Of a stretch of DNA of 64,000 nucleotides, positions 28,036-56,096 are shown piece by piece. The notes beneath the pieces are model-generated. The model did no database searches, was not told where the DNA came from, and saw only the letters and a list, made by a program, of their open reading frames with translations. Every line of letters begins with the position of its first letter. Positions within the stretch are counted from its first letter, which is position 1. Source of the stretch: Polytrichum commune (lineage: Eukaryota > Streptophyta > Polytrichopsida > Polytrichales > Polytrichaceae). A program made the position numbers and the translations under genes. The DNA is taken from positions 29,995,501 to 30,059,500 of the forward strand of contig OX485805.1 of assembly GCA_950295325.1 (NCBI GenBank), read 5' to 3'.

Positions 28036-28292
28036 AAACTCCCACATTAATCAACTTTGCTAGCTTAACCCCAGCAACAAAGCTCCACTACCTGTAGTAC
28101 GTTGTGCACACAACAAACCAGTACATCGCCGGAAGCAGGGATAATGAACAAAGACGTGCATGTTTAAGGGTTTCCAAGCTCATCGTTGAGCAAGGTATAG
28201 GTTAGTGACCAGGTTTAGGGTTGGCAGTGAGTCCAGGGCCCGGGTATGAACCTGGTATTTGCGCACTGCTTGGTAGTTCAAGCTGGTATCAC

Positions 28293-28555
28293 CAGGGTTG
28301 TCTATCGCGACGTCATGACGGTGTCGTGCCGTCATGTCGTGTCGTGTCGTGACGGACCCCTCCGTCACGACACAATAGGGTCCACGTAGGGTCAACATAG
28401 GGTGAATGGACTAGGGTGGGTAAAATACTTACCTTCTTGCCAAGGTGGCGTCCTATGTGGCAGAAAACGCCGACGTGGATGTGCATATTTCCCTTGCCAA
28501 GTAAACCATTTTGCCATTGTGTTTATCATTCTGTTAAAATCAAAGTAAAAAAATA
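28293..28555. promoter_or_regulatory. Left subterminal region of the giant hAT element
   Basis: Dense GTCGTGACGG/CCGTCACGAC motifs in both orientations follow the terminal repeat (28305-28375). The same block recurs at 49603-49860. In hAT elements subterminal motifs are the usual transposase-binding sites; that role is inferred here. Confidence 0.55.
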
Positions 28556-28559
28556 TGAC

Positions 28560-28870
28560 TAAGGAGGGTGTGGGGCGGACGCTGGCGGACGGGTGGGGCG
28601 GACGGGGGCGGACGGGGGAGGGGGGTGGTGCGGACGGCGGAGGGGGGTGGAGCGGACGGACGGGGGGGTGGTGCGGACGGGGGAGGGGGGTGGAGCGGAC
28701 GGACGGGGGGTTGGTGCGGACGGGGGAGGGGGGTGGAGCGGACGGAGGGGAGGGGGTGGAGCGGACGGACGGGGGGGTGGAGCGGACGGAGGGGGAGGGG
28801 GGTTGGGAACGGGGGGGAACGCTGGAGCGGACGGGGGAATGCGGAGGGGAGCGGGGGGGAGGGGAACAGC
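28560..28870. repeat. G-rich minisatellite array A
   Basis: Units of about 16-17 bp built on GGGGTGGAGCGGACGG, G-rich on the plus strand, 260 bp inside the left end of the giant element. Open frames on both strands through it are by-products of the repeat. Confidence 0.85.
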
Positions 28871-28884
28871 GTGCAATTGCGGCC

Positions 28885-29030
28885 ATATATTTTCTGGCAG
28901 TAAAAATAATATTGCATATTCATATAGAGGACTTCATTACCTATCCATGGATACCAAGAACTCATTTTTTGAACTTCATATGAATTTTTGAGAGCCAAAA
29001 AACCGAGACTATGTCCAAACTTCCAAAAAA
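28885..29030. repeat. 150-bp module, copy M1
   Basis: Contains 'attgcatattca', 'ctatccatggatacc' and 'atgtccaaacttcc' in order. It recurs in direct orientation at about 32450-32600 and 35758-35900, and at 57010-57150 in the second giant element. It always adjoins a minisatellite. Confidence 0.8.
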
Positions 29031-29762
29031 AAGTGTTTCTGAATTATATAAATATAAATATAAGCAATTGTGAAGAGTCCTTGTGAGAGAATACCATTCA
29101 TAAAATTGCACACCCAATCAAAACTTTATTCAATATCAAGTTTACAAATCACGAGTGAATATGAATCAATGTAATTGGATGTGTAGTTTTTATCATCCAT
29201 ATTATGGTTGTATTTCATCCGTTAACGTTTATAGAATCAGATTTACAAAGAAGGGAGTACCATTTTGTTAACATTTAACACGTTTAACATTTATAGTGTG
29301 CAATATGTGGGGAGCAGAAGAAAGTTAACATTTAGAGATGTTGAGGATCACGTGTACAACCGATATAACTATTGCAATATTGTGCTCAACTTTAGTTAAC
29401 TAGATATAACTATAGTTGACTACATTTTGTGGCATACCAAAATTAGAATAAATATAGGTAACTGCATTTTGGCAAGACATGTCACAAACAACTATAGGTA
29501 ACTTGAACTTAGCACATGGATGTGATAACAACGATGTGAAAGAACGATGTGGCCTCACGAGAGGCGAGAACCTTGGTTAGCCTCCCATAGACTTCTTCTC
29601 GATTATGGAGCAAAAGCCTCATGGAGTATGAAAATTGCACTAAGATCCATAAACCTCATACAATATACAAGTTTTGTATGAAAAAATGATGGCTTTATTT
29701 ACATCTCCAACGGTTACAAAATTGGTATGATTCAAAATTGTTGCAAAAAAAACAAAAAAAAT
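29031..29762. other. 3' flank of the kinase-like gene
   Basis: AT-rich, without an open frame. Nearly the same sequence, inverted, lies at 53174-53860, so it moved as part of the kinase block. It carries the poly(A) signal of the gene. Confidence 0.6.
29694..29699 (-). terminator. Poly(A) signal of kinase-like gene, copy 1
   Basis: AATAAA on the minus strand about 65 bases after the stop codon, at the same place as in copy 2. Confidence 0.55.
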
Positions 29763-31679
29763 CTATTTTGCAGTGTCACGGAAGCACATTGTCGGGTTAA
29801 CCATGTTGTATGGAGGGGACTTCAAAATGTTCACTACGTGTGTGATGGTTGACCTTTCCGCTGGATTGGTCTTCGTCAATGAATCCAATGCTAACTCAAA
29901 CCGCATATTCAAGCCATTTGGATCACTGTTTAGCTGAAACAAGGGGGAAGTCGCATCCCTGGCATAAATCTTCTTTGCCAAAGCACCCACTGAGAAGGAC
30001 TCCGAGAGAAACGTGTGCCTATGTTTCCGAGCCATCCTCACCGGAGAGGTGGATGTTCCACGCTGCCCTCGTACATGGAATAATTCTGGACCAGCACAGT
30101 TGTATTTTGCTTTGTGCTTGTTCATCTCATCCACTGAATCTTTTCCATAGTTGGAGGGTGCGTCTTCACCTCCCCAGGATGCCATGCCCCAATCACACAC
30201 ACCAATGTAAACCGTGTTATCACGGTCTTGTGGGAAATGCAGCATGACATTGTTGGGATTAAGGTCATTGTGCAACACGTCATGCTTGTGCACTACATCC
30301 ACAATGCACATTAGAGCCCATGTCAAATAAGCTCGATGCCTTTGATATACAACCAACCGTTTCCGTGCTTCAAAGTCTGCCCCAGGCATTTGAAGGATTG
30401 TGCGCTCGTGGGTTTCCGGAACGCTGAAGTCATAGACCCTCATGTTCTTCAAGGAGCCTCCATTCCACCACATCGAATAGGATTCGTATGTTTTCATATT
30501 GAGGTATTGTAGCTTGATTACCCCATGATGATCTACTGGACACGCCAATGCTTCAATTGAACGCTCCTTTCGGTTCTCCAGACTATTCGTGGCCTTCATG
30601 GTCTTCCCAGCCCACTCTATCCAGCTAGGGATGAATGATGCTCCATGAATTGTGACTCTCCGCACCACTCCGAAGGTCCCTTGGAAGATTTCCTTATCCA
30701 AGGCTTTGATCTCCGCATTCCTAGGCAACCATATGACACCCTGCCGGCCCTGAGTGGCAATGTTGTCTGCCATCTGCCTGTCAATAAAAATGGGAAGGTT
30801 GCGGGCGGATGTTCCTTTTGCTGCTATTACGCCTCTTTTCCAATTCTCTAGCTTCATGTACAGCTCGGACTTCCTGCCACTACTATTTCCCTCGCCAGGA
30901 TGCAGAGCATCATATGCCATTGTTGGATTGTAGATTGCTTCCCTAGCTTGTTGTTCAATCCAGGTGTCCCAATCGTTCATGCCCCTAGCTTCTTCAAACT
31001 CCGGTCCAGCCGTGGCTTCCGTGAGAATAAGCATCAATTCGTTCCTCACCAACTCTAAACCCTTTGTACCATCATTGAGGTATTTTTTTTCCAAATAAAC
31101 CATGCTGTTATTTCTAAACCACTCCAACAGCACGACCCTACAATGGTTTCGAGCCTCATCGATCCGCGGGTCGCGTTTGCCTCTATTTTTCTTTTTCCTC
31201 GATTGCGAACCTGATAACGCGGACCCCTCCTCCGTCCCTTCCGAAACTGCTGGACGTTTCTGTCCCCGTCTTTCACCATGCTCCGAACCCTGAGGTACAT
31301 CACGTGTAGGGCTCTCCGGTCTTGATGTCTGCCGTGTCGGAGATCGTGGTGGCACGGACTCACCACGAGTGGCTGCATTTATATCTGTGGAACTGCCTGA
31401 GCTTGGTCCCCTTCCTGTTCTCCCTCTAAGGCCACTGTTTCCCCGACTCCCACGTGTTCCACGGCTTCCACGTGTTTGGTTGCCTCCTGAATGACCAACA
31501 ACAAAGAACTCTTCGCCAAACCGAAAAGGATCTGGACGTGGGGGACGGGCTGCAGTACTTCCACTTCCGGCATCGCTTCCCGTACCCTCTCCAGTATACG
31601 CAGATGGAGTGCGTTGGAGCCAAGCACGGTGCACCCTCCTATCCTCGTCTTGGTAAGGAGCAATGTCCTCCCCCTCCAT
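29763..31679 (-). CDS. Protein-kinase-like cargo protein, copy 1
   Basis: This 638-codon single-exon frame starts at ATG (MEGEDIAPYQDED); copy 2 has exactly the same length. Residues 1 to about 155 are Gly/Ser/Arg-rich and low in complexity. A basic, NLS-like patch (SRKKKNRGKRDPR) follows, then an unrecognised region, then a kinase fold. Its parts are glycine loop GTFGVVRRV (about 335-343), Lys in EWAGKTMK (about 359), helix-C Glu in RSIEAL, HNDLNPNNV catalytic loop (Asp about 472), CDWG in place of DFG (Asp about 496) and GPE in place of APE. The catalytic residues look present, so activity is plausible. The frame stays open upstream through the minisatellite to 891 codons. However, the TATA box and matching start in copy 2 mark that part as promoter. 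Substrate and subfamily are unknown. Confidence 0.75.
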   Translation of the reverse strand: MEGEDIAPYQDEDRRVHRAWLQRTPSAYTGEGTGSDAGSGSTAARPPRPDPFRFGEEFFVVGHSGGNQTRGSRGTRGSRGNSGLRGRTGRGPSSGSSTDINAATRGESVPPRSPTRQTSRPESPTRDVPQGSEHGERRGQKRPAVSEGTEEGSALSGSQSRKKKNRGKRDPRIDEARNHCRVVLLEWFRNNSMVYLEKKYLNDGTKGLELVRNELMLILTEATAGPEFEEARGMNDWDTWIEQQAREAIYNPTMAYDALHPGEGNSSGRKSELYMKLENWKRGVIAAKGTSARNLPIFIDRQMADNIATQGRQGVIWLPRNAEIKALDKEIFQGTFGVVRRVTIHGASFIPSWIEWAGKTMKATNSLENRKERSIEALACPVDHHGVIKLQYLNMKTYESYSMWWNGGSLKNMRVYDFSVPETHERTILQMPGADFEARKRLVVYQRHRAYLTWALMCIVDVVHKHDVLHNDLNPNNVMLHFPQDRDNTVYIGVCDWGMASWGGEDAPSNYGKDSVDEMNKHKAKYNCAGPELFHVRGQRGTSTSPVRMARKHRHTFLSESFSVGALAKKIYARDATSPLFQLNSDPNGLNMRFELALDSLTKTNPAERSTITHVVNILKSPPYNMVNPTMCFRDTAK

Positions 31680-31884
31680 CGTGAAAAAAACCGCGTGAGT
31701 GAGTGAATGTAGAAATGAGTGCGTGAATCTGGAAAAAAAATTGCGAGGGTTCCCCCACAATTTGCCCTGCCCTCCCAAACCCCCTGAGACCCGCGCGGTG
31801 CCGCTGTCCTTGGGACGGCAACAAGGTCTCGGGTCCCTTTGTGGTGGGAGGAGAGGAAAGTGAGGGGAACTAAAGCCCCACGGC

Positions 31885-31892
31885 TTTATATA
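31885..31892 (-). promoter_or_regulatory. TATA box of kinase-like gene, copy 1
   Basis: On the minus strand CCTATATAAAG lies about 205 bases upstream of the ATG, between the gene and array B. It is conserved in copy 2. Confidence 0.65.
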
Positions 31893-31954
31893 GGCAAAGC
31901 GGTGCACAATCATTATGGGATCCCGGTCGGATTTGACATGGGGCACGAAAAGGA

Positions 31955-32425
31955 CGTATGGGGAGCGTGGGAACGCGGGGGCGGACGGAGGGAACGAGTG
32001 GGCGGACGGAGGGAACGAGTGGGCGGACGTAGGGGAACTCGGGCGGACGGGAGGGAACGAGGGGCGGACGGGAGGGAACGAGGGGCGGACGGGAGGGAAC
32101 GTGGGGCGGACGGTAGGGGAACGTGGGGCGGACGGGTGGGGAACGTGGGGCGGACAGGTGGGGAACGTGGGGCGGACGGGTGGTGAACGTGGGGCGGACA
32201 GGTGGGAAACGCGGGGCGGACGGGTGGGGAACGCGGGGCGGACGGGTGGGGAACGCGGGGCGGACGGGTGGGGAACGCGGGGCGGACGGGTGGGGAACGC
32301 GGGGCGGACGGGAGGGGAACGCGGGGCGGACTGGAGGGAACGGAAGGGAACGTGAACGCACGGAGGGGAACGTGGAGCGGACGGGTGGGGAACGTGAGGC
32401 GGACGGGAGGGAACGGGTTGAAGGG
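31955..32425. repeat. G-rich minisatellite array B (5' of kinase gene)
   Basis: Near-perfect 20-21-bp units such as GGGGAACGCGGGGCGGACGG run through 32110-32330, with more variable units on either side. The array lies immediately upstream of the kinase promoter. It is the counterpart of the inverted array at 50350-50965. Confidence 0.85.
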
Positions 32426-32429
32426 GGCA

Positions 32430-32600
32430 GGGGAACAACGTGGAATTGCGGCCATGTATTTTCTGGCAGTAGAAATATTATTGCATATTCATGTAGAGGA
32501 CTTCATTACCTATCCATGGATACCAAGAACTCATTTTTTGGACTTCATATGAATTTTTGAGAGCCAAAAAACGGACACTATGTCTAAACTTTTAAAAAAA
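32430..32600. repeat. 150-bp module, copy M2
   Basis: Direct repeat of the M1 module (28885-29030), preceded in both places by 'gcggccat..attttctggcagta' and ended by the same A-rich run. Confidence 0.8.
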
Positions 32601-32607
32601 AGTGTAA

Positions 32608-33196
32608 ATGACCAAGTTCACACTATGGCCGTCCAAGTCGAGAGGCCGTGCGATTCAGTGGCCCAACTTTGTTGAGAGTCCAAAGAAATGAACTGAAAAT
32701 AGCCAATAAAATATAGTAAGGATAGCCTTAGTTGGACATAGTGTGAAGCCTCCAAAGGTCAAGCGCAAAGTCCAAACCTTTGGCCATGAACTCCCACGGC
32801 CTCTCGGCTTGGATGGCCAAAGTGTGAAGCCTCCAAAGGCCAAGCCCAAAGTCCAAACTCAAAGGAGCATGCCACTTTATTCCTTGCTCAAAATAACCCC
32901 TCCAATCTAACGGCCAAGATCTTGTCAATGATTGATTATTTTAATGAAAAAAAAGTTCGGCCTCTCGACGGAAGTTTGGGTTGAGCATTTTGCTATACCC
33001 AAACTTTACTCGAGAGGCCGAACTCTTGGCGCCATAACTTCCTAAAAGTGTTGCCACCTAGGCTCTTTTGGAGGCGACGTCCTTTGGACTTCGGCCTCTA
33101 GTGTGAAGGCCGAGAGGACGGACTTTGGGCATTTCAACATTTTCATTGGTCCAAATGTTGAACCTCTCAAAGTTTGGCCATATTGTGAACCGGCCC
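32608..33196. mobile_element. Harbinger-like repeat inside giant element 1
   Basis: The right end complements GGGCCGGTTCACAATATGGC. The left end (GTTCACACTATGGCC) is a diverged inverted counterpart. A TAA precedes the left end and TTA follows the right. Present at the equivalent place in copy 2, so it inserted before the two copies separated. Confidence 0.6.
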
Positions 33197-33216
33197 TTAG
33201 ATTTGCAATACATGTC

Positions 33217-33561
33217 TTATTCTTTTTTTGGCACAAATTGAAAATTCAAATTCAAAATACAACCAACCCAGCCGAAACAGCGCAGCCTAAGTGGAAATCT
33301 ATAAATAATGTTCATTTGAGGCCTATCCTTCCAAGTAGGGACTAAGTTGCTACGGGTCACAATAAGACCTTTGACCCCCCAAATCAAATCAAATTTGTTA
33401 AGAATGTCATGGTAGGCCACGTCCGGGGCTTTTTCCAAGTCCCTAAGCATATGTTTCCATTCAATCCTCCCATAATCTGATTTGTAATACATGTCATAAA
33501 AGCTAATGCAATTATTGTTTTGAAGTCTACCATCAAATGATATGTAAGATCGTATGTTCAC
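33217..33561 (-). CDS. Hypothetical 114-codon frame shared by both giant elements
   Basis: An open minus-strand frame without an ATG at its start, ending ...LNFQFVPKKE. The equivalent frame at 54480-54824 has the same length and about seven replacements. It could be a remnant exon (it contains LEKAPDVAYHDILNKFDLIW) or simply open by chance in two young copies. No domain is recognised. Confidence 0.25.
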   Translation of the reverse strand: MNIRSYISFDGRLQNNNCISFYDMYYKSDYGRIEWKHMLRDLEKAPDVAYHDILNKFDLIWGVKGLIVTRSNLVPTWKDRPQMNIIYRFPLRLRCFGWVGCILNLNFQFVPKKE

Positions 33562-34256
33562 ATGTGGTTGGTTCTTTTTATGTACCAGTTTAAGCCAATA
33601 CTAAAATAAAATAAACCTTATTCTATAAAATCTAGTGACACTACCATACAAGTTAGTAGAGACATTGTATATATTTTTTAATTATTCTATATATTTACAT
33701 AACTACAACTTATAATTCTGTGAAGAATATGTATACATAATACAACAAAGTTTAAATCAGTACCTCTTTTGTGCACTCACATATACTCATACGGATTTAG
33801 TATAGTGCACCCCCCCAATTGATCACTAATGTGGGCCACATTAAATTTAAGCCCACACCAATTCCCTAGTTTAATATCAATGTGGACCAGATTAATTTGC
33901 TTTTCTATAATGTTCTAATTTGTGTAAGGTGTTGGTAAGATATCTTTATGAAGCCTATGGGAACTCGGGGGATGCACTCTACATTATGTTTGAGAATCAC
34001 GTGCGTTCATGACCCCTTCTAAAAACCCCAATGTATACCATAAGTTATATGTCTAAGTAGAGATTGTGCCAACTTGAAGTAGTCCTCGCGATTTGCGAAC
34101 GTTTATCTTTCGCTGTAGGCATCGTAAAAAAAAGCGGGTGGGTTCGTTGGAAAGCTGGGAACCTAAACCCTCAAACCATGTATGGAAACACTTCTACATG
34201 AGTGTGAAAACAAAACAATGGCACATATGTGGTAGCAATTTGGAATGACATAGACG
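33562..34256. other. Conserved non-coding DNA of the giant element
   Basis: AT-rich; closely matches 54825-55511. I see no gene in it. Confidence 0.5.
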
Positions 34257-34590
34257 TAGGGTTTAGGGTTTAGGGTTGTGAAACCATATGAACCACAAAG
34301 GTTGAAACACAAATATATACTTTGTTGAATTAAAATGACATTCGAATGCGTGTGGGTTGTGAAACCATACGAACCACTAAGGTTGAAGCACAAATATGTG
34401 ATTTGTTGAATGAAAATGGCATTCGGATGCCTGAAATGCGTTGTGAAACCATATGAACCACAAAGGTTGAAACACAAATATGTACTTTGTTGAATTAAAA
34501 TGACATTCGAATGCGTGTGGGTTGTGAAACCATACGAACCACTAAGGTTGAAGCACAAATATGTGATTTGTTGAATGAAAGGACAACCCA
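34257..34590. repeat. Short TTTAGGG run and 81-84-bp tandem repeat
   Basis: A few TTTAGGG units (34257-34276) lead into four units starting GTGAAACCATA at 34278, 34359, 34443 and 34524. Alternate units resemble each other most, suggesting a higher-order dimer of about 165 bp. The 148-codon minus-strand frame here follows the period and is not a gene. Confidence 0.8.
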
Positions 34591-34798
34591 TCAAATATAG
34601 AAGCTTCAAAGAGGTATCAAAGAGGTTTCCAATGCGGGTGTCAGAAGGACTTTTTTTAAAAGTGCAACTAACTTTTTGACTTCACCAACTTTATTTTTAT
34701 TCCTATTGTGTTGTCTTTATCTTACTAACGAGAATTGGATCCTCTACATCTTGGATTACATCAAATATTGTAAATTTTATAAAGTCCTTTGAGCTCAG

Positions 34799-34806
34799 TA
34801 TATAAG
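34799..34806 (+). promoter_or_regulatory. TATA box of the 184-aa gene
   Basis: TATATAAG, 42 bases upstream of the ATG; the same box lies at the same distance in copy 2. Confidence 0.6.
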
Positions 34807-34847
34807 TCGAGCATTTAGACTCATACATATAACGAGGGTAGAGTATC

Positions 34848-35402
34848 ATGAATAGGATGGGAGAGAAGAGAGACATATTTGAGGATCTAGGATGTGATGA
34901 GGAGATAGCAAATTTAGGTGAACCCGATATTCCATTCAATCCATCATCCGAGCGTGAGAAAGATGAGAGAAGTGCTAGAGATCGATTTCGTGATGATTAT
35001 GTCATGACCCCCTTCTCACAATCTACACAAGCATGGAAGTTGAGGGCGGAGGAGGATCAACGACGATATGCGGCGAAATTCGAGATCAATGCAGTGGAGA
35101 AGGACCTAACAAAAAGCATGGGTGGAGATCCAAATGATGTGGTTGATTTGAGCGTGGATATTTGGGTGAAGCCCAGGAATGTGGATGACAATTCAATCGA
35201 CATTGAAGATGTCAAGGTAGCGGAAGAATCTTCAAGGACTTTGCCTTTTCGTAAGAAGAGGAGAGGATTATCGCCTCATCGGCTACCATTGAAGGAACGG
35301 ATGAAAGACCGAACGATTAGCTATGTTGATTTACTTCGACCGAATCCTCTCCCAAAAATGGACCCTCGACGGAAGCCACAAACATCTACGAGGTTGCCAT
35401 AA
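34848..35402 (+). CDS. Unrecognised 184-aa cargo protein, copy 1
   Basis: The ATG frame begins MNRMGEKRDIFEDLG. The N-terminal two-thirds is highly charged; a basic cluster FRKKRRGLSPHRLPLKERMK lies at about 131-150, followed by a Pro/Arg-rich tail ending STRLP. A nuclear location is plausible from the basic cluster; no domain is recognised. The copy at 56097-56657 is 186 aa. The last 65 or so residues are identical, while the N-terminal part has many replacements and a net two-codon insertion, yet the frame is kept. TATA and poly(A) signals are close by. It is probably a real small gene of the element with unknown function. Confidence 0.6.
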   Translation: MNRMGEKRDIFEDLGCDEEIANLGEPDIPFNPSSEREKDERSARDRFRDDYVMTPFSQSTQAWKLRAEEDQRRYAAKFEINAVEKDLTKSMGGDPNDVVDLSVDIWVKPRNVDDNSIDIEDVKVAEESSRTLPFRKKRRGLSPHRLPLKERMKDRTISYVDLLRPNPLPKMDPRRKPQTSTRLP

Positions 35403-35498
35403 CGGAAGTCAAGTTGACGGAATGAAGTGGAATATTAAATCATGCATGGTTTGTTCATGTATGTGATTTATAAAGGGCATTTGTACCGTCGTCGCAAT

Positions 35499-35504
35499 AA
35501 TAAA
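35499..35504 (+). terminator. Poly(A) signal of the 184-aa gene
   Basis: AATAAA about 100 bases after the stop, conserved at 56754-56759 in copy 2. Confidence 0.5.
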
Positions 35505-35757
35505 GTTATTACTTGTACAATATATTGTACCACTTCTATGATATATATTTTTTATAAAATTTCAACCAACCGCTTATTATTGCATACTTCTATGGGGTGA
35601 TAATTTGTTGGTCATCATACTACATTGGTTACTTTGTTGCTTGAGGGATCCTTCATTAGTTTTGTGTGAATAAGTACACCGGTTATGATATTTAGTGTCA
35701 CATATATTATTTGCGAAGGGCCTAAGTTAGATGGGGTGCGGATGGGGGGACGCAGAA

Positions 35758-35900
35758 ATGTGCAGTAGAAATATTATTGCATATTCATGTAGAGGACTTC
35801 ATTACCTATCCATGGATACCAAGAACTCATTTTTTGGACTTCATATGAATTTTTGAGAGCCAAAAAACCGAGACTATGTCCAAACTTCCAAAAAAAGTTA
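35758..35900. repeat. 150-bp module, copy M3
   Basis: Third direct copy of the module seen at 28885 and 32450, directly before array C. The DNA just upstream (35668-35735) resembles the MITE end at 20936. Confidence 0.8.
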
Positions 35901-35914
35901 AAAAGTGCAGATTC

Positions 35915-36715
35915 AAGGGGAACGCGGGAGCGGACGGATGGGAACTCTAAAGCGGACGTAGGGAAACATGGAGCGGACGAGAGGGAACGTTGGAGCGGAC
36001 GGGGGGAGCGGACGGGGAGCGGACGGGGAGCGGACGGGGAGCGGACGGGGAGCGGACGGGGGGAACGCGGGAGCGGACTGAGGGGAACGGACGGAGGGGA
36101 ACATGGGCGGACGGAGGGGAACGAGGGGGCGGACAGAGGGGAACGCGGGGCGGACGGAGGGAACGAGGGGGCGGACGTACGGGAACGGGTGCGGACGTAG
36201 GGAACGAGGGGGCGGACGTAAGGGAACGGGTGCAGACTCGGACGGGGGGGGGGAACGGGCGCGGACGGTAGGGAACGGGTGCGGACTGGGAGGGGAACGG
36301 GTGCGGACTGGGAGGGGAACGCGGACGGACGGGGAGGGGAACGGGTGCGGACTGGGAGGGAACGGGTGCGGACTGGGAGGGGAACGCGGGCGGACTGGGA
36401 GGGGAACGCGGGCGGACTGGGAGGGGAACGGGTGCGGACTGGGAGGGGAACGGGCGCGGATTGGGAGGGAACGGGTGCGAACTGGGAGGGGAACGGGCGC
36501 AGATTGGGAGGGAACGGGTGCGGACTGGGAGGGGAACGCGGGCGGACTGGGAGGGAACGGGTGCGGACTGGGGGGAACGGGTGCGGATTGAGGGGGAACG
36601 GGCGCGGACTGGGGGGAACGGGTGCGGATTGAGGGGGAACGGGCGCGGACGGGAGGGAACGGGTGCGGACTGGGAGGGGAACGGGTGCGAACAGGGTGGG
36701 AACGGGGAGCGGATG
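35915..36715. repeat. G-rich minisatellite array C (5' of RING-variant gene)
   Basis: Two sub-arrays: short AGCGGACGGGG units (about 36000-36060), then GGGAACGGGTGCGGACT units of 17-18 bp to 36715. It runs straight into the 5' end of the RING-variant gene. Proline/arginine-rich frames of more than 250 codons cross it on the minus strand and are artefacts. Confidence 0.85.
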
Positions 36716-36729
36716 GAGCACAGTTCTAG

Positions 36730-38528
36730 ATATTCCATACACTCCCGTTCCGGAGTGGTTCAGGAGGAATCCTCGACTAGTGGATGAGCCTGGGGCCCCA
36801 ATTCCAGAGGGTCGGGAACCAAAAAAACCTCGTAATCATAAACGACCAGCCAATGACGTGAAGATGGCCATCGAGGAGGCGTTTGAGCATATGGATGAGG
36901 GCATGGAGGCAAATATCGAGGTCAACAACCTGATCAACGACGTGGTTAACGAGGTCCTGGACGAGGTAAACCTTGGTGAATTTGGAGCGGACCCGATGGA
37001 CAGCAGAATGGAGGAATTGCGTAAGCAACATGCGTTGGAAATTCGTGAGTATAAAACGATGATTTTCGAGTTGGAAAATCGAGTTGCAACACTTACGATG
37101 GGGGAGGCTAGCAGTTCAAATAGTACACCACTTAACCTTCAGTCTTTGGAAGCAGAGAGGGACGCAGCTTTACAGGAGGCCAAGATTGCAAAGTCACAAG
37201 CTCTGGAAGTATGTATGAGGAATGAAGTAATGCGAGGAAAGATAGAGGCTTTGCAAAAGGAGGTGGTGGACATCCAACAACAACTTCAAGTGGTCAATGA
37301 AGTGGTTGTTGATCACGAAGCCAAGATTGGCGGACTAGAAGAGCAGAATGCAAGGTTGAAGAAATTCTTGTTGGATGCGATTGTGGAGCACAAGAATATG
37401 ACGACAAGCACATTGCTTGCTATGGCCAAGGCTCGTCAATTTGAAGCTGAGTTTGAGAGCATCCAGAAGGAATGGAACCGCAATCAGAGAATGCGGAACA
37501 TGATGCTCACGTCATGGCCAGAAGACGAGCATATGTACCATAGTAGGTGGGATATAACTAATGAGTGGACATTACCAAACGGGAGCATCGATTGGTGTCA
37601 AGTGACCGATCCAGATCACCATTGGGATGTGACCCAAGTGCATGAATATCCATTCCGCATGAGGGGTGAGTTGTTATGGCCAAATCCACATACAATGGTC
37701 TTCGACGGAACCGCGTGTGCGATTTGCCAATCTCCATTTGGCCCGGAAGGATGCTATCAAGTTGGATCATGTGGGGCCCAATTCCATCCACAATGTCTAA
37801 TAGGGAATATGATCAAGAAACGCCAATATCCTCATTGCAGATCACCCTTCCACCCTCGTTTGTACCTCCAATTTGGCCTTCGGGATTACATGCTTAATGA
37901 CTGGGTATTAAAGCCATGGGACTTTCCCTTCGATCTTCAAGAGTTTGATGGGGAGAATGTTGAGTGGAGTTGGTTATACAATTGTGCCAAAGTTGAGCTA
38001 TGGCACGAGAACAGAGATGGCGACTGGACACGGAATGCACGTCAAATTTTGTATGTTGCAGACGAGTTGTATCCCAACAAGCCCCCTGATCATGGCTTGA
38101 AAAGATTTTTGTACCAAACTCTTGAATGGCATTGGGATACAACCAGCAGACAATTAAAGAGAGGCATTCAGCCTCCTTGGTACAATACAGCAGGTCTCGA
38201 ATCAGTATCGGAGCATGATTTGGAAGAAGATGCAGATGACATGCCTACGGAACGGGATCCGAGATATGAATTGCAGTTAGAGGTGGGGTACCACAATAAC
38301 AGGCTGCAGTTGGCTGCAATTGATGCACTCTTGTATAGAGTTGCGGATGATGTGATATTGAGATGGCTAAATGGTGGGCCTAGACCACGTAATGCCGTTC
38401 CATTGTCTCCTGGTAGTCGTCCATACCTCACCCGTGGAACAACGCGAAGCATAGAAGCGGGGGAATCATCTCGAGCACGACGAGGATCTACTTCAGCTAG
38501 AATAGACCTCGATTCAGATTCGGATTAG
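36730..38528 (+). CDS. Coiled-coil and RING-variant cargo protein, 5' end uncertain
   Basis: Coding sequence is clear from about 36730 (DIPYTPVPEWFRRNPRLVDE). The frame continues back into the minisatellite without an ATG; the first in-frame ATG is 36864 (MAIEEAFEHM). An acceptor-like TTCTAG ends at 36729, so an upstream exon may exist or have been lost. From about 37000 to 37520 the protein is Glu/Lys/Leu-rich and likely coiled coil. At 37716-37845 a RING-like cluster reads CAIC, then SCGAQFHPQC and YPHCRSPF. The usual Cys before the last Cys is Tyr, so one metal ligand is altered. A C-terminal acidic and Ser/Arg tail ends DLDSDSD. An E3-ligase-like role is possible but not shown. Confidence 0.6.
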
Positions 38529-39228
38529 GCATTTTTGTACCATGTTTAGAAAGTTGTATAGGAACGGAGGAAGACTTTGGACACAATGAACATATTTCAT
38601 GTTCAAAGAATATGTAATATAAAGAGGATTTACCGACAAGTTGTCATTTCTAAGATCGTGTAAAAGATAGCATATGGATGTCACATGTTTTAATGTTATT
38701 CGAAACTTTTAAAAACTTACTTGAATATTAGTAATTCATATGATAGTCTAACCAAAAGTATTATTGACTACATAGTCAATATTGAATACCACATAAAGAT
38801 ATAATTATATAAAACGGATAGAAAGGTCCTCAAAAAGAGGATGTCACCAACAAAGCATGTACAATCGAGCAATAGGAGATTGCAATATTTATAAAAGCAT
38901 TTTCTTTAAGAAGCTCAATAAATAAACATAAAACTCCATTCACAATAAGAATAATACAAAATAGTAATTAATAAAGGCATAACATGTTGTTGGAAATTAA
39001 TTGCAATGCTAAGTTGACAACCATATTGTATTTTAAAATTTAAAAAAAAACATGCAATAAATAATTTTATTGCTATAATAATATGATACAACTTCGAAGG
39101 TAACGTTCGCTTTGTGGTCTAAATGTCTTACCGAAGGCCCTAAGGTTGTAACTTGTATCAATTTTGACGTAAGTAATAAATTATGGGAGTACGTGGGAGC
39201 ACCAAAATACCACATTTGTGCAAAACCA
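38529..39228. other. Convergent intergenic region
   Basis: AT-rich DNA between the ends of the RING-variant and transposase genes; no gene seen. Confidence 0.5.
39066..39071 (-). terminator. Poly(A) signal of the hAT transposase
   Basis: AATAAA on the minus strand about 160 bases beyond the transposase stop codon. Confidence 0.45.
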
Positions 39229-42200
39229 TTACATTCGAATCCGTACTGTGGGATCATTTGCTTCGACACATCTTGGGTCCTCTTCAGACTCGTCTGTGCT
39301 GCAATCATCATCCGTTTGGGGAGTCGCACTCCGAAGATGCAACTCTCGGTCACGTTGTGAGAAAATTATCTTCTTGGTCGGCCGGGAGCCCTCTGCATCC
39401 TGTATGCCATTTTCATCTAGATGTGGTCTACCCTCATCTTCATTGTAGTCTTCAGCAGTAAACGGAAGCGATCTTCCCTGATACCTCTTCCTAGTACGTT
39501 TGACACCTCTCATAGTTCTCTGACGCCCTCCACCCGTACCACGACTTGAGTGCACTTCATTTCTACTTCCATCTATAAAAACATCCCCCGTTGTACTTCC
39601 GCCTCCAACTCCAAGGCCACCTGTTCCATTGGATTGACTGTGTGGAAGTGAAACTGATGCGGACGGAATTGCAATTAGTATGTTCTCAACAACATGTCGA
39701 CGAACAGATTGACGACGTGGCGCCTCAGTAGTAACATTTCTTGAAACATTGTGTATAGCAACCAAAGTAGCACCCACCGTAGTTGCACGTGAAACACCCA
39801 ATCTAGAAGTATTGGTAATACTTCGAGTGAGAGGACGACGTTGACCTTGTACATGCACTTGCACCGTAGAGGTGGATGCAGTTCTTTGAAGAGCACGGAA
39901 TCGAGTTGTAGGTATTTCAGGAACATTGGGCGTTTGATCTTCTACACGATGGTTGGATATGAGGGAGGCGTTTATGGATTCAGAATGTACTCGGGCTGGA
40001 AGTGGATCCTGTTGAACGTGCGTTGGCTCATTTGCGGGTAGTACATTGTCACCTTCACCAAAAGAAAGAGAATCGCTCCGAGGTTGCAAGGAATCTACTT
40101 CAATTCTTACATTCTCACTTGCCCCCATAGCAACATTATGGTCAGGGCGAAACCCTTGTCCAGTGTGGAGAGTTTCAAAAGGCGGTCCTCCAATAGACCC
40201 CTCATGATCATCATGCATTCCGTCGTTATGTTGGGGGACATCCGGTTCATCAAAATCAAACACCCCAAGGTTTCCATCACCACCATTGCCATCCTCATCT
40301 TCTGAATCATGATTCTCGGAATCGAGGTCATCCAAATCAAATTCGATGTCATCAACATTGTTGTCATCATCATTTCCGGCCCTATCATTTGGATCCACGT
40401 CATCTTCGTTGTCATCTTCTTCGTCAAGGTCATCGTCAGAATGGACCTCATTCAATTCGTACCATTGCGTAGGTCTTGGGCCCCTCCGATGTCGAATGAG
40501 CCTACTATTGGTATATATGTAGATGAGGTCCTCAGCACGACTATGCTTCAAGCGATTGCGACTCTTGTTGTGAATATATGAGTACATGCTCCAATTGCGT
40601 TCACATGCGGATGCGGAACATACTTGTGTAAGGATACGTCTTGCTATTGTTTGGAGGGCTTTAGCTCCACCTCCCATTGCATCCCACCATTCATGGAGAG
40701 GTGCGGCATGCACGCTCGGGTCAGTAGAATCAGCAAAAGGCCCTCGATTTTCAAGGAAATCTTGGTACTGGTGGAGGATTTGGACATAAGTGTCCTCATC
40801 TTGAGCAAGCCTGCGAAGAACTCGATTTAGGATTGTCCTCGAATTGTCATCCTCATGGAGTGGGGCCCAACCACGTAGAAGCGGATTTAACATCGCTCCA
40901 GCCCAATGTAGATCATTCCACATCAACCTCCATCTATTTTGAAACGTTAGCATAGCATTTGCAGCAAGCTTAGGGCTTAAGCGAAATGGAGGTTTACTGA
41001 ATCCACGAATATGGGTTTGTAAATCATGCATGACCCTCCAAGCCATTCCCATTGCAGGCGCCTTGCCATCAAATACACGAAGAGCTTTAACAACCGGGAT
41101 CACCATATACAAGAAATTTTCGCACGTGTTCCAGAATCCATCAGAACGTATAAAGTGTCGCAACCCTTGCTAACCCCCTTAGCAATCTTGCCAATTTTCA
41201 ATTCTAGCAAAGGTTACGAGCGCTAACCAATCGCATTCCGCCATGCTAATGGTTAGCTCCTCCTACCCCGGACCTTATAGTTCATAGGAGGGAACCAACC
41301 CTCCTACTTTGCTTTCGGGACTCACCCCTTAATCGGTAACCCATTTCCCCAATGTGGACTTCCATCCATGGAAGTCCAATCCTATGTTGATCATCGCATT
41401 GCCGGAGCAACACTACAACAACCCGAACCATACTAGGCAACTATGGCCTCACATTGGGCCAATGCCCATGGAGGCCGTGCCGTTCGGCCTCGGGTGGGTG
41501 AGGCCACACCACCTCACCCATATAAGCCTCTAGGACTTCACGCGGGGCCCCTACCCCACCGTCAACCAACCTCTTGTCTCTCTACCAAGAGTTGGGGCCA
41601 AGTGGACATTTTCCTTTAGCTGCTGGGCCTAGAACCCCCCCAGCAGCTTCAGACCATCATAACTTCCTTGTATGATGTCTGATCATAACAACCAACCACT
41701 CCATCTTCATCTACGCTTCACGTAGATGCCGATGGGCTCCTCACTTGCTCCATTTGAGCAAGTCTTGAGGAAGTTATGCCTGTTTGAACCTTGGCAGTCC
41801 CGGGAATCACTCCCAGGCACTGCTGTACCAGGGCGCTGTCCCGGGACAGCGCCCCACTCAAATGGCCATAACTCCTAGCTCACACCTCCGATTGAGGTGT
41901 TCTTGAGCTTTCTAGAATCACCACGCCATGAGCTACGCATAACTCATGGCCTTACCCTTGTGCCTCCTAGTCTTCGTGGGTGGGAGGCGTTCCCAACGCC
42001 CGGGGCCCTCACCCACACTAGGATCACTTGGGCCCTCTCACCAACGGCGCCACAAGTCCCGGGTGTCACTCCGGGGTCCCCCTTGTGCCCATGGTGTTTC
42101 GGGAACTCCTCATGGAGAGGTGCGCGACATAAAGCTTCGCACAGCAGAGCCCTTCATGTAAGAGGTGCGAGATCTCCTCCTCATATCACGCATTAGAGTA

Positions 42201-43405
42201 GGCCAATCCTCATCAACCACCATTCTTTCCAAAGCATTGCGTACTTGGAGAAGACGTTCTATCATGATGAAGTTCGTTGCAAAACGGGTCTCTACAGGTA
42301 GGCGGAGTGAGAGATTTGGTGACAACCTCCGGAATATAGCTTGAGAAGCATGATGGTTTTTAACAAATACACAAATATGGCGCACTTTTTTTACCAACTT
42401 TTTCACCCATTCCTCCTTCCCCCAATCTTCTAAGAGGAGATCTAGGCAATGTGCAGCACATCCTTGAAAATATAGATCGGGATTTGCTCGAATCAAGTCA
42501 CGAGCAGCGGAGGCCATAACTGGGGCATTGTCGGTGCAAACTTGGACCACATTATGTCGACCAACCTTTTCCACAAATGGTTGAATTTGAGCAGCAACGT
42601 AGACATGATCCTTGTGATTTCCCGTGGTGTCAATGGTACCCAAGAAAACGTCTCCCTTTGTGCCACATTGAAGAACGTTTAGGAGAGGTCGGTTTTACAC
42701 GTTGTCCCATCCATCGCAACATAGTGTAACGCCATATTTGTCAACGGAATTCCCCAGCTTCTCCTTCACTTGCCTATCTAGGTCAACCTTTTTATCAGTT
42801 AACAACTTCGTACGGATGGCATTGTACGATGGTGGTGTGTAGGCTGGCATTCGATGATGGGCAGTTTCACGCACAACATTAACAAATACAGAATGTCTCA
42901 CAATGTTGAAAGGAATGTTAGCTTCATAAAAAGCCGTTGCCCATGCTTTATCAAGGAGTTGTTTTGTTGACACATTGAACCCCTCCGTTATGTTGAGTTG
43001 ACGTAGTTCACGAGGAGGTGTGCCATATATCACAACATCAAAATGTTGAGTGGATTGGGACATAAGCAAAGGCTCTGTTTCACTAATTACGGAGTCCGCT
43101 ATAATAGGCTCCAGAGGTACAATATCTGGCACCGGAGAGTCCTCATTTACAATGCCTACATGTAAGGGCACAATGCCTCCGCAATGTTCAAACAAGACCC
43201 TAATATGCGGGGGAACCATCCTACATGTGGAAACATCACAAGCACCCCCTACAGGAGGTCTATAACCAAGGTGGGCCAACATTCTATTTCCTCGGTAAGA
43301 TATGACGAACGGGCAAAACCTACATTTAACCTGCCTTTGTGATTTACCGGGAACCATCCCCTTATCCTCGTACCAATGATCCCATGCATCATTTCGGCGT
43401 GACAT
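39229..43405 (-). pseudogene. hAT transposase (BED, DUF659, hATC), two lesions
   Basis: The likely start is the ATG at 43405 (MSRRNDAWDHW), just after an acceptor-like TATTTGCAG, so the leader may hold an intron. In order: BED finger (CRFC ... AHL), DUF659 region (CCDGWDNV), the DDE-type core (VVQVCTDNAPV, CAAHCLDLLLEDWG) and the hATC block (CSASACERNWSMYSYIHNKSRNR as family pattern, about 40590-40520). A long acidic, low-complexity tail of about 370 residues follows, unusual for hAT proteins. Lesion 1: a TAA at 42695-42697 where relatives carry a sense codon before NRPLLNV. Lesion 2: a solo LTR at 41156-42129 with its duplicated TAAAG. Counting the target site once, the total is 3,198 bases, a multiple of three (1,066 codons with stop). 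The gene was therefore intact before these events. Confidence 0.85.
41156..42129 (-). mobile_element. Solo LTR of a Ty3/gypsy element in the transposase gene
   Basis: The 974-bp LTR starts TGTCGCAACCC and ends GGTGCGCGACA. It is flanked by an exact 5-bp duplication TAAAG (41151-41155, 42130-42134). It is closely similar to the LTR at 58635-59606. Strand is assigned from that copy's pol genes. A 24-bp perfect palindrome (half-site GGGCGCTGTCCC) lies at 41831-41854. Confidence 0.9.
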
Positions 43406-43649
43406 GACTTCAACAAAACCTGCAAATACAAACAAGTTAGAGCAAGTAACTTTGATCGCATACTAGGTCCTGTTCAAGAGTGCCACAAGGGCAACCCTAA
43501 TTCACAGTCACTAGATTGGACAAAGTATCCTCTGCATTCGGGTCTCACGCATTCAATCCTCACTCCTCAAAGGAGAATCAAAAGACTTGAGACACACTAT
43601 GTCAGTGGAGGCAAAAATGGCACCTTGAACCCTCAATTTATAGTATTCG
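43406..43649. other. 5' flank and leader of the transposase gene
   Basis: Contains the inferred acceptor TATTTGCAG on the minus strand near 43420-43430, and otherwise no recognisable feature before the minisatellite. Confidence 0.4.
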
Positions 43650-44035
43650 AATCGGACGGGGGAGCGGACGGGGGAGCGGACGGGGAGCGGACGGGGAGCG
43701 GACGGGGAGCGGACGGGGAGCGGACGGAGGGGGGGGAGCGGACTGGGGGGCGGACGGGGGAGTGGGGGGGAGCGGACGAACGGGGGGAGGAGCGGACAAG
43801 GGAGCGGACGGACGGGGGGGCGGACGGACGGGGGGGGAGTGGACGGAAGGGCGGACGGGAGAGGGTGGGGAGCGGACAGGGGAGGGTGGGGAGCGGAGGG
43901 GGGGGGCGGACGGGGAAGCGGACGGAGGGGGGGGGAGCGGACGGGTTGGGGACGGGGCGGGGAGCGGGAGCGGACGGGGGGGAACGTGGGCGAACGGGGG
44001 TTGGGAACGGGGGCGGACGGGGGGGCGGACGGGCT
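43650..44035. repeat. G-rich minisatellite array D (5' of transposase)
   Basis: Units GGAGCGGACGGGGA and variants, G-rich on the plus strand, about 230 bp from the right terminus and about 245 bp upstream of the transposase start. Confidence 0.85.
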
Positions 44036-44180
44036 CTAGTAAATTTTTCTCCACTTTACCTTTACTTTGCTGACATGTCATCACACGTGGACATTGTAAA
44101 TCCTACGTGTCCGAATTGGGTTAATGTAATTACACAAAAAAATCGGTAAAATTCAAGTCCGTCAGGATAAAGACAGCATC

Positions 44181-44266
44181 CGGCATAATGTCGTGACGGA
44201 TACGTGTCGTGACGGCACGACATTATGCCGGGATTACCCTCCATCACAACACAATAGACAACCCTG
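44181..44266. promoter_or_regulatory. Right subterminal palindrome of the giant hAT element
   Basis: CGGCATAATGTCGTG (44181-44195) faces its perfect complement at 44216-44230 around two GTGACGG motifs, followed by the terminal repeat. It could form a hairpin or paired transposase-binding site; the role is inferred. Confidence 0.6.
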
Positions 44267-44342
44267 GGTATCACAAACCAGTGTACATACCCTTTTACAG
44301 ACCCGTGTGCGGGACAGATACCCGTTCAACACTGGTTCAAAC

Positions 44343-49602: not shown

Positions 49603-49869
49603 CAGGGTTGTCTATCGCGACGTCATGACGGTGTCGTGCCGTCATGTCAGGTCGTGTCGTGACGGACCCCTCCGTCACGACACAATAGGGTCCACGTAGG
49701 GTCAACATAGGGGGAATGGACTAGGGTGGGTAAAATACTTACCTTCTTGCCAAGGTGGCGTCCTATGTGGCAGAAAACGCCGACGTGGATGTGCATATTT
49801 CCCTTGCCAAGTAAACCATTTTGCCATTGTGTTTAGGGTTCTGTTAAAATCAAAGTAGAAAAATATGAC

Positions 49870-50350
49870 TAAGGAAGGTGTGGGGCGGACGGTGGGGCGG
49901 ACGGGAGAGGGGGGTGGTGCGGACGGTGGGGCGGACGGGAGAGGGGGGTGGTGCGGACGGCGGAGGGGGGTGGTGCAGACGGCGGAGGGGGGTGGTGCGG
50001 ACGGGGGAGGGGGGTGGTGCGGACGGGGGAGGGGGGTGGAGCGGACGGGGGTGGGGCGGACGGAGGGGGTGGAGCGGACGGGGGTGGGGCGGACGGACGG
50101 GGGTGGAGCGGACGGGGGTGGGGCGGACGGACGGGGGTGGAGCGGACGGGGGTGGGGCGGACGGACGGGGGTGGAGCGGACGGGGGTGGAGTGGACGACG
50201 GACGGGGGTGGAGCGGACGGGGGAGGGGGTGGAGCGGACGGGGGAGGGGGGTGGAGCGGACAGGGGTGGGGCGGAAGGGGGTTGGGAACGGGGGGGAGAA
50301 CGCTGGAGCGGACAGGGGAACGCGGGGGCGGATGGGGGGAACGCGGAGGG
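49870..50350. repeat. G-rich minisatellite array A of copy 2
   Basis: GGGGTGGAGCGGACGG units as in array A of copy 1 but longer, G-rich on the plus strand up to an abrupt strand switch at about 50350. Confidence 0.85.
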
Positions 50351-50965
50351 CTCCGTCCGCCCCAAGTTCCCTCACGTCCGCCCCACGTTCCCCCGCCGTG
50401 CGTTCACGTTCCCACACGTTTCCTAACGTCCGCACCCGTTCCCTACCGCGTTCCCTCCCGTCCGCGCCCGTTCCCTCCCGTCCGCGCCCGTTCCCCCCCA
50501 GTCCGCACCCGTTCCCTTCCCGTCCGCCCACGTTCCCTCCCGTCCGCCCCACGTTCCCTCCCGTCCGCCCCACGTTCCCTCCCGTCCGCCCCACGTTCCC
50601 TCCCGTCCGCCCCATGTTCCCTCCCGTCCGCGCTACGTTCCCCTCCCGTCCGCCCACGTTCCCCTCCCGTCCGCCCACGTTCCCCTCCCGTCCGCCCACG
50701 TTCCCTCCCGTCCGCCCACGTTCCCTCCCGTCCGCCCCATGTTCCCTCCCGTCCGCCCCATGTTCCCTCCTGTCCGCGCTACGTTCCACTCCCGTCCGCC
50801 CGCGTTCCCCTCCAGTCCGCCCCACGTTCCCCTCCCGTCTGCCCCATGTTCCCGTACGTTCCCTCCCGTCCGCGCTCCGTTCCCTTCCGTCCGCCCGTGT
50901 TCCCCTACGTCCGCCCCCTCGTTCCCTCCGTCCGCCCCCGCGTTCCCACGTTCCCCATACGTCCT
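50350..50965. repeat. Minisatellite array B of copy 2, inverted (C-rich)
   Basis: Units CGTTCCCTCCCGTCCGCCC, the complement of array B in copy 1. It abuts array A head to head. Long open frames on both strands, up to about 400 codons, are by-products. Confidence 0.85.
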
Positions 50966-51023
50966 TTTCGTGCCCCATGTCAAATCCGACCGGGATCCCA
51001 TAATGATTGTGCTCCCCTTTGCC

Positions 51024-51031
51024 TATATAAA
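51024..51031 (+). promoter_or_regulatory. TATA box of kinase-like gene, copy 2
   Basis: TATATAAA, about 225 bases upstream of the ATG. The intervening leader is almost identical to copy 1 except for a short insertion near 51210-51235. Confidence 0.65.
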
Positions 51032-51256
51032 GCCGTGGGGCTTTAGTTCCCCTCACTTTCCTCTCCTCCCACCACAAAGGGACCCGAGACCTTGTTGCCG
51101 TCCCAAGGACAGCGGCACCGCGCGGGTCTCAGGGGGTTTGGGAGGGCAGGGCAAATTGTGGGGGAACCCTCACAATTTTTTTTCCAGATTCACGCACTCA
51201 TTTCTACATTCACTCACTCCTTTTTACATTCACTCACTCACGCGGTTTTTTTCACG

Positions 51257-53173: not shown

Positions 53174-53880
53174 ATTTTTTTTGTTTTTTTTGCAACAATT
53201 TTGAATCATACCAATTTTGTAACCGTTGGAGATGTAAATAAAGCCATCATTTTTTCATACAAAACTTGTATATTGTATGAGGTTTATGGATCTTAGTGCA
53301 ATTTTCATACTCCATGAGGCTTTTGCTCCATAATCGAGAAGAAGTCTATGGGAGGCTAACCAAGGTTCTCGCCTCTCGTGAGGCCACATCCTTCTTTCAC
53401 ATCGTTGTTATCACATCCATGTGCTAAGTTCAAGTTAACTATAGTTGTTTGTGATATGTCTTGAAAAAATGCAGTTACCTATATTTATTCTAATTTTGGT
53501 ATGCCACAAAATGTAGTCAACTATAGTTATATCGGTTGTACACGTGATCCAAAATATCTCTAAATGTTATCTTTCTTTTACTCCTCACATATTGCACACT
53601 ATAAATGTTAAACGTGTTAACAGTTAACAAAATGGTACTCCCTTCTTTGTAAATCTGACTCTATAAACGTTAACGGATGAAATACAACCATAATATGGAT
53701 GATAAAAACTACACATCCAGTTACATTGATTCATATTCACTCGTGATTTGTAAACTTGATATTGAATAAAGTTTTGATTGGGTGTGCAATTTTATGAATG
53801 GTATTCTCTTACAAGGAATCTTCACAATTGCTTATATTTATATTTATATAATTCACAATCATTTTTTTTTGGAAGTTTGG
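53174..53880. other. 3' flank of kinase-like gene, copy 2
   Basis: Inverted equivalent of 29031-29762. It ends in a run 'ggaagtttggaca' that is the inverted edge of module M1, marking one inversion junction. No gene is seen. Confidence 0.55.
53237..53242 (+). terminator. Poly(A) signal of kinase-like gene, copy 2
   Basis: AATAAA about 65 bases after the stop, same place as copy 1. Confidence 0.55.
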
Positions 53881-53890
53881 ACATATTCTT

Positions 53891-54459: not shown

Positions 54460-54479
54460 TTATATTTGCAATACATGTC

Positions 54480-55511: not shown

Positions 55512-55850
55512 GTAGGGTTTAGGGTTTAGGGGTTTAGGGTTTAGGGTTTATGAACCACAAAGGTTGAAGCACAAATATGTGAATTGTCGAATGAAAGGGC
55601 AAGGGGATGCGTGTGGGTTGTGAAACCATACGAACCACTAAGGTTGAAGCACAAATATGTGAATTGTTGAATGAAGATGGCATTCGGATGCCTAATATGC
55701 GTTGTGAAACCATATGGACCACAAAGGTTGAAGCACAAATATGTACTTTGTTGAATTAATATGACATTCGAATGCGTGTGGATTGTGAAACTATACGAAC
55801 CACTAAGGTTGAAGCTCAAATATGTGAATTGTTGAATGAAAGGACAACCC
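55512..55850. repeat. TTTAGGG run and tandem repeat, copy 2
   Basis: About five TTTAGGG-type units (55512-55550), more than in copy 1, lead into about four units of the 80-bp family. The run replaces the first part of the first unit. Confidence 0.8.
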
Positions 55851-56055: not shown

Positions 56056-56096
56056 TAGAGCATTTAGACTCATACATATAACGAGGGTAGAGTATC

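Follow-up and report, generated by a model that had tools for sequence, protein, structure and literature searches.

The window analyzed here, a 64,000-nt stretch of the Polytrichum commune genome (assembly GCA_950295325.1, contig OX485805.1, positions 29,995,501 to 30,059,500), contains a complete hAT element of 15,974 bp at 28293-44266 on the forward strand, designated W1, which carries a kinase-like gene, a 184-aa open reading frame (ORF) and a RING/coiled-coil gene in addition to a hAT transposase gene. W1 is delimited by terminal inverted repeats (TIRs) with the sequence CAGGGTTGTCTAT, exact over 13 bp at both ends and followed inward by imperfect inverted similarity, and it is flanked on both sides by the octamer GGTATCAC as an 8-bp target-site duplication, so that its limits are exact to the base, as the original prediction had it. 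Within the window CAGGGTTGTCTAT was found at the two ends of W1 and once more on the forward strand at 49603-49615. A shuffle control allowing up to two mismatches reached three matches in 13 of 100 shuffles and did not by itself exclude chance; all three matches in the window are exact. TGTCGT, GTCGTG and TGACGG repeats lie in the subterminal region next to the left TIR. TIRs of the hAT superfamily are short and of the CAGGG type, and W1 shows the hAT features, namely an 8-bp duplication, short TIRs of this type and hAT transposase domains. The transposase and the three other genes expected inside the element were all located as frames, but the transposase of W1 is split by a solo long terminal repeat (LTR) and a stop codon.

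The transposase of the open copies that were read (described below) has 1060-1065 aa with DUF659 and Dimer_Tnp_hAT domains, the 1065-aa copy L025 giving expectation (E) values of 2.9e-35 and 3.8e-10, respectively. Towards its C-terminus the protein shows an ACERNWS motif. The solo LTR in the W1 gene has TG..CA ends and a 5-bp duplication (TAAAG), and was missing from the eight other bounded elements compared; W1 also has an in-frame stop at 42695-42697. Of the 90 transposase places tallied, 41 had frames of at least 1000 aa with no stop in the matched exon.

The W1 kinase matched PF00069 at E 7.8e-06, under the curated cut-off, which its relatives P0021 and P0036 exceed. Among 43 homologues found, 11 were aligned with the window sequence, and in these 12 rows the Lys, Glu, His, Asn and Asp-Trp-Gly residues are invariant while the catalytic-loop Asp is kept in 11; the residues expected of PF00069 (Lys, Glu, loop Asp and Asn, DxG) are thus all present, save for the loop Asp of one row. 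The structure model had low confidence (predicted local distance difference test score, pLDDT, 57.9), and a fold search with it gave 17 matches with E up to 0.001, all of them protein kinases and all with low TM-scores (0.18-0.23 by query length). A sequence search of the PDB with the kinase alignment gave a single marginal match, FUS3. The gene is free of stops and frameshifts in 4 of 11 copies (W1, W2, L029 and L027).

The RING frame of W1 spans 631 aa from stop to stop, or 554 aa from its ATG. The cargo had been described as long and open, which is true of the kinase and the 184-aa ORF, but the W1 RING protein lacks about 170 N-terminal residues of its relatives and has Tyr at one Cys ligand position. 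Of 23 homologues found, the 11 aligned share the N-terminal region and a RING-H2-like finger with seven invariant zinc ligands, W1 having its Tyr at one of these seven; at the eighth ligand some relatives have His (CGHxxHxxC) and W1 has Ala (CGAQFHPQC). Three relatives matched zf-RING_2, one at 37.0 bits (cut-off 27.3) and two below it at 25.6 and 22.7 bits. "RING-H2-like" thus describes the finger better than "RING-variant", with zf-RING_2 above its cut-off in one of three relatives. The structure model was poor (pLDDT 54.4) and featured a long coiled coil. In the genome, 13 of 76 scored RING rows have no internal stop, 7 of them over the whole query. The 184-aa ORF has no Pfam match, and its frames are open in both W1 and the second element of the window, W2.

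W2 belongs to a different subfamily (A2; W1 belongs to A1), begins at the third exact CAGGGTTGTCTAT match and runs past the window, spanning 17.9 kb including a nested retrotransposon; the exact duplication CAGCCAAC flanks it on both sides. When its flanks are joined less one octamer, an open frame continues without a stop, and this restored frame is that of a clean insertion only. The cargo had been said to be shared with a second copy: W2 does share the kinase and 184-aa genes with W1, but it has no RING gene, and it also lacks a transposase. The LTRs of its nested retrotransposon are 96.5% identical to the solo LTR of W1 and belong to the same family; about four tandem copies of 229 bp lie at 62223-63120 within the nested retrotransposon region. 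The frame that W2 entered is retroelement-like (46819-49602 and L031:3468-4145), with a weak aspartyl protease match just under the cut-off, and beyond W2 it reaches a C5 cytosine DNA methylase domain (PF00145, E 2.2e-10). The target thus seems to be a retroelement carrying a DNA methyltransferase; such retroelements are known in other eukaryotes.

Table 1. Features of the two hAT elements (W1 and W2), in window coordinates.
Feature	Position	Strand	Remark
8-bp target-site duplication GGTATCAC, left	28285..28292	.	flanking octamers compared
Left 13-bp terminal inverted repeat	28293..28305	+	exact match to CAGGGTTGTCTAT
Left subterminal GCGGACGGGG tandem array	28572..28860	.	
Kinase-like gene, 638 aa, open	29763..31679	-	
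Tandem array upstream of kinase gene	31969..32415	.	
184-aa ORF	34848..35402	+	
Tandem array upstream of RING frame, overlapping it	35918..36718	.	
RING / coiled-coil gene	36633..38528	+	ATG at 36864
hAT transposase gene, interrupted in W1	39229..43405	-	
Solo LTR within transposase, 974 bp	41156..42129	.	junctions read
Tandem array upstream of transposase	43653..44033	.	
Right 13-bp terminal inverted repeat	44254..44266	-	exact match to CAGGGTTGTCTAT
8-bp target-site duplication GGTATCAC, right	44267..44274	.	flanking octamers compared
W2, second element, subfamily A2	49603..64000, ends past window at 67459 (L031:3459)	+	
Kinase gene of W2, open, inverted with respect to W1	51257..53173	+	
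W2 copy of 184-aa gene	56091..56657	+	
LTR retrotransposon nested in W2, about 7 kb	58635..64000, on to about 65756	.	

Tandem arrays of the GCGGACGGGG type occur near the left end of W1 and upstream of its kinase, RING and transposase genes, and may possibly represent a shared promoter or binding region; such arrays, and also a 183-nt unit, are found again next to several genes. The suggestion that each gene has its own signals found little to sustain it, since TATAWA occurs within 600 bp upstream of three of the four gene starts (RING being the exception), when 43% of 600-bp stretches drawn at random from the element contain it as well. Just left of W1, at 27756-28046 (-), lies a C-terminal fragment of another hAT transposase. 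An alpha/beta-hydrolase fragment just under the Pfam cut-off lies at 15063-15533 (+); we take it to resemble a plant methylesterase.

The assembly (408 Mb, 64 contigs) was searched for further copies. Exact CAGGGTTGTCTAT matches numbered 494 on the forward and 515 on the reverse strand, as against 0 and 1 for the pattern read backward. A 194-aa piece of the transposase gave 148 rows, the top 103 of which were used as family or near kin; those left out were second pieces, rearranged copies and distant relatives, and two were restored for the neighbour test described below. The genome holds about 100 transposase copies, and all listed transposase and RING matches fall on seven contigs, C1-C7. 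Twelve copies were examined: W1, W2 and ten others (L numbers) fetched as 20-kb stretches from the first 17 transposase rows, chosen for contig spread before any cargo search (C1:28934442, whose end pair spans 30 kb, was skipped). In 10 of the 12 (eight fetched copies, W1 and W2) both ends and the 8-bp duplication were exact, and the ten octamers were all different; L019 and L025 lacked one exact end within the fetched 20 kb. Nine copies measured 12.1-17.1 kb with nested insertions included, the longest, L017, holding a 1.5-kb nested family member with its own duplication. The kinase was present in all ten bounded copies, RING in nine (L029 has only a 108-aa fragment), the transposase in nine, and the 184-aa gene in eight (L011 and L029 have none of it and L015 only a part). 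All four genes are present in L025. In L019, where the left end was not reached, the stretch read holds the RING, transposase and 184-aa genes and no kinase. Gene order was constant in copies on several contigs. The original prediction had weighed the prospect that most full-length copies would lack the cargo, or that the cargo would be confined to this locus; in the ten bounded copies sampled neither was the case.

The association was also apparent when the RING gene was the query. That search gave 243 candidates, of which 74 places were scored (76 rows less two second pieces). At 67 of these 74 places the RING gene lay within 8 kb of a transposase, with convergent orientation in 67 of 67, where about 0.3 would be expected by chance; four of the remaining seven lay 9-25 kb from a transposase and three beyond 490 kb. 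Conversely, a listed RING gene lies within 8 kb at a minimum of 65 of the 103 transposase places, a lower bound because the RING genes found by tblastn in several fetched elements are not in the scored list. On C1, three giant elements at 21.83-21.97 Mb share their neighbouring short forms, spaced almost equally, as if by a recent segmental duplication. Two C2 copies near 35.9 Mb also seem to have arisen in this way, and the members of each set are therefore not independent copies.

Pairing of the ends was surveyed in the first 100 of the 1009 listed, all on C1. These formed 37 adjacent inward pairs, 24 of 526-1846 bp and 13 of 10.8-35.8 kb, with 26 of the 100 ends unpaired. None of the 24 short pairs holds a listed transposase. 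A listed transposase lies in 11 of the 13 long pairs and a listed RING gene in eight, with neither in two; three long pairs look like segmental duplicates. The two short forms that were read, L001 and L008, are each flanked by exact 8-bp duplications and made up of the two ends with array sequence between them, and an array of the GCGGACGGGG type fills the longer of them. A transposase-only hAT would be expected to measure 3-8 kb, and no pair of 3-8 kb occurred among the 37. A transposase-only lineage in which the cargo is incidental was thus not seen in this survey.

The copies fall into two subfamilies, A1 (W1, L011, L013, L015, L017, L021 and L023, with L019 assigned by its other genes) and A2 (L025, L027, L029 and W2), which differ in kinase orientation. 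The kinase block is inverted between them (29003-32418 in A1, 50507-53892 in A2), with breakpoints near tandem arrays and the 183-nt unit. Nucleotide distances within A1, within A2 and between the two were 1.3-2.1, 0.3-0.8 and 2.0-2.8% for the transposase, 1.2-2.2, 0.5-0.8 and 2.9-3.9% for the kinase, 2.5-5.5, 1.3-2.2 and 7.2-9.5% for the 184-aa gene, and 2.5-5.4, 1.4 (two copies) and 3.5-4.4% for RING. All four genes vary little within A2, and the distances would therefore fit genes that travel together. L019 was counted in A1 for these distances and for the ratios between the groups. L027 has a second kinase copy outside the element, and its inner copy was used for these distances and for the between-group ratios; the L027-L025 kinase distance is 0.5% by nucleotide alignment and 3.2% by protein-guided pieces, the latter figure being put down to the pieces at the L025 frameshift. 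Between the majority codons of A1 and A2, the nonsynonymous/synonymous ratio was 0.30 for the transposase (p 1e-4), 0.36 for RING (p 0.016) and 0.53 for the kinase (p 0.03), which suggests modest constraint on all three genes between the subfamilies. The ratios for private changes were 0.88 (transposase), 0.67 (RING), 0.71 (kinase) and 0.61 (184-aa ORF) in A1, and 0.56, 1.89, 0.38 and 1.09, respectively, in A2; one A2 RING copy in these tests is a fragment.

A more distant subfamily is represented by L034 and L036, whose left ends lie at L034:11750 and L036:11796 and which remain homologous to each other up to, or close to, the point where the fetched stretch stops, the right end not being reached. 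Identity to the A copies is about 70% for RING and 81-88% for the transposase, with ratios of 0.44-0.64 and 0.45-0.54, respectively. Synonymous divergence is 0.26-0.33 for RING and 0.12-0.16 for the transposase, and from this inequality modules have probably been exchanged. Beyond this genome, 57 transposase homologues were found, those with a named organism (Cryptomeria, Taxus, Rhodiola and Saponaria) all being distant. Aligned homologues are 29-86% identical for the kinase and 36-86% for RING and keep the key residues. Kinase P0021 and transposase P0071 are each on a contig of 15,563 bases, and kinase P0025 and RING P0056 each on one of 476,656 bases; we read each pair as sharing one contig. 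Viral contigs searched with the kinase and RING gave no relatives.

Together, these data are best explained if W1 is a copy of a large multi-gene hAT family with resident accessory genes, which we consider probable. That a stable multi-gene hAT family exists, as had been predicted, is very likely, with the kinase in 10, RING in 9, the transposase in 9 and the 184-aa gene in 8 of the 10 bounded copies; whether the accessory genes serve the element, rather than the host or nothing, we regard as evenly balanced. The working form would have the transposase near the right end, a convergent gene for a RING coiled-coil protein and a divergent kinase near the left end, with the 184-aa ORF as a fourth and usual fellow traveller. 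The transposase would bind the repeat-rich ends and move the whole block. W1 and W2 are defective and would therefore depend on transposase from another copy for movement. The kinase and RING genes may be retained as residents because they help the element. Most likely they would modify or remove host proteins of silencing or repair, or else tune the transposase, a role modelled on the anti-silencing proteins of some plant Mutator-type elements.

Several observations weigh against this interpretation. Both copies in the window are broken, W1 being unable to encode an uninterrupted transposase, and most fetched copies carry a stop or frameshift in the kinase or RING gene. The only RING copy with full coverage and no stop or frameshift is the 594-codon stretch of W1, itself without the N-terminus, and the A2 majority RING sequence contains a stop. 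The constraint tests are modest one-sided counts on 3-8 copies per group, uncorrected for base-change bias; the A2 private-change ratio for RING, from eight changes, stands at 1.89, and ratios pooled over all copies are only 0.58-0.78 (transposase 0.58, RING 0.59, 184-aa ORF 0.78, and kinase 0.66 with the L027 gene mixed with its second copy). The 184-aa ORF shows no constraint between subfamilies (ratio 1.03, p 0.59). For RING and, slightly, for the transposase, the spread within A1 reaches into the range that separates A1 from A2, and in L034 and L036 no kinase was found from the left end to RING, the right end not being reached. Two of the 13 long end pairs have neither a listed transposase nor a listed RING gene, and three of the 74 scored RING places are far from any listed transposase. 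The shared contigs of the relatives are indirect, resting on equal sizes.

Some of these points suit passive capture, in which host kinase and RING genes were picked up once and have since been copied along without function, in the manner of Pack-type elements. The decay of many copies and the 184-aa ORF, unconstrained between subfamilies, are in keeping with it, as is the known capture of gene fragments by plant hATs, and a diverged host parent gene is conceivable with 74 of 243 RING candidates scored and three of these far from a listed transposase. We nevertheless think it unlikely, given that full-length open frames persist, that the kinase and RING appear constrained between subfamilies, that homologues at 29-86% and 36-86% identity keep the key residues, and that the kinase recurs with the transposase or RING on equal-sized contigs elsewhere. 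Equally, the arrays and 183-nt unit beside several genes, the inverted kinase block of A2, the distant subfamily with no kinase left of RING and the unequal synonymous divergence of RING and transposase might be taken to mean that the kinase, RING or both came from other transposons inserted in a hAT. Such a composite is improbable: W1 and W2 have no further exact 13-bp end inside (other flanking element types were not searched for), an inner end pair occurs in only one of the ten fetched 20-kb stretches (L017, 1.5 kb), and the arrangement is common to copies at independent sites. The genes might instead benefit the plant, with the element as carrier, as has been proposed for fungal Starships. 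Kinases and RING proteins are typical host regulators and the genes are open in some copies, but a gene set nearly fixed in ten bounded copies, decaying like the transposase and under constraint resembling that of the transposase, makes this very improbable. Finally, although the region is repeat-rich, the notion that an assembly artefact or chance placed unrelated genes between two matching short ends is ruled out for practical purposes by ten copies with ten different exact 8-bp duplications and by the open frame restored when the W2 flanks are joined.

Few transposons have been studied as much as hAT elements, which as a rule carry a transposase and no other gene. The present family resembles the superfamily (Ac/Tam3/hobo type) in its DUF659 and C-terminal hAT dimerisation domains, CAGGG-type TIRs, 8-bp duplications, subterminal repeats and short deletion derivatives, and differs in adding a kinase, a RING gene and a 184-aa ORF, in its size of 12-17 kb, and in that the one-gene form was not seen in the sample examined. 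Pack-TYPE elements carry varied captured fragments and no transposase of their own, and plant hAT elements are also known to capture gene fragments; the present family likewise carries non-transposase coding sequence, as gene-capturing plant DNA transposons do, but here the same genes recur together with a transposase, unlike the Pack-TYPE pattern. In VANDAL elements, which are plant Mutator-type elements, VANC is a second, anti-silencing gene. They are similar in having an accessory gene conserved beside the transposase, and are the model for the role proposed above, but belong to another superfamily, and in the present family it is a kinase and a RING protein that would take the analogous role. 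Starships of fungi are large, carry variable cargo and are moved by a tyrosine recombinase captain at one end; the present elements are also large and cargo-bearing but their transposase is of the hAT type and their gene set hardly varies. Six W1 ORFs scanned at E 0.001 matched hAT domains and no recombinase.

The closest published parallel is ToxhAT of wheat-infecting fungi, described as a TIR-bounded element of about 14 kb with a hAT-like transposase and several other genes, without identifiable target-site duplications and composed of at least two transposons (PMC6737239). As so described, ToxhAT shares with the present family large size, TIRs and a hAT-type transposase accompanied by several genes; the present family differs in that exact 8-bp duplications flank 10 of the 12 copies examined, that one genome holds about 100 transposase places, and that the accompanying genes encode a kinase and a RING protein. 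Nesting of the ToxhAT kind was not indicated in W1 or W2 by any inner exact 13-bp end, other element types not having been searched for. Titles and opening abstract lines of the open-licence literature disclosed no multi-gene hAT of this kind besides ToxhAT, and no hAT family in which kinase and RING genes are resident. "Undescribed", the word used in the original prediction, therefore suits the present family but not the bare idea of a multi-gene hAT, ToxhAT as a large multi-gene hAT-type element being already in print (PMC6737239).

We tentatively propose, though the odds are somewhat against it, that kinase and RING genes have been retained across species by a hAT clade as its own toolkit for modifying or removing silencing host proteins through phosphorylation and ubiquitination. 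If true, this would be a hAT element fighting or steering its host by these two means. A high-copy family with two further constrained genes and with kin in other data sets would show that hATs can become multi-gene systems, and the subfamilies, broken copies and short derivatives present in one assembly make the proposal testable by comparative genomics and RNA data. With such a family one could examine directly whether kinases and ubiquitin ligases are put to use by transposons to counter host silencing.

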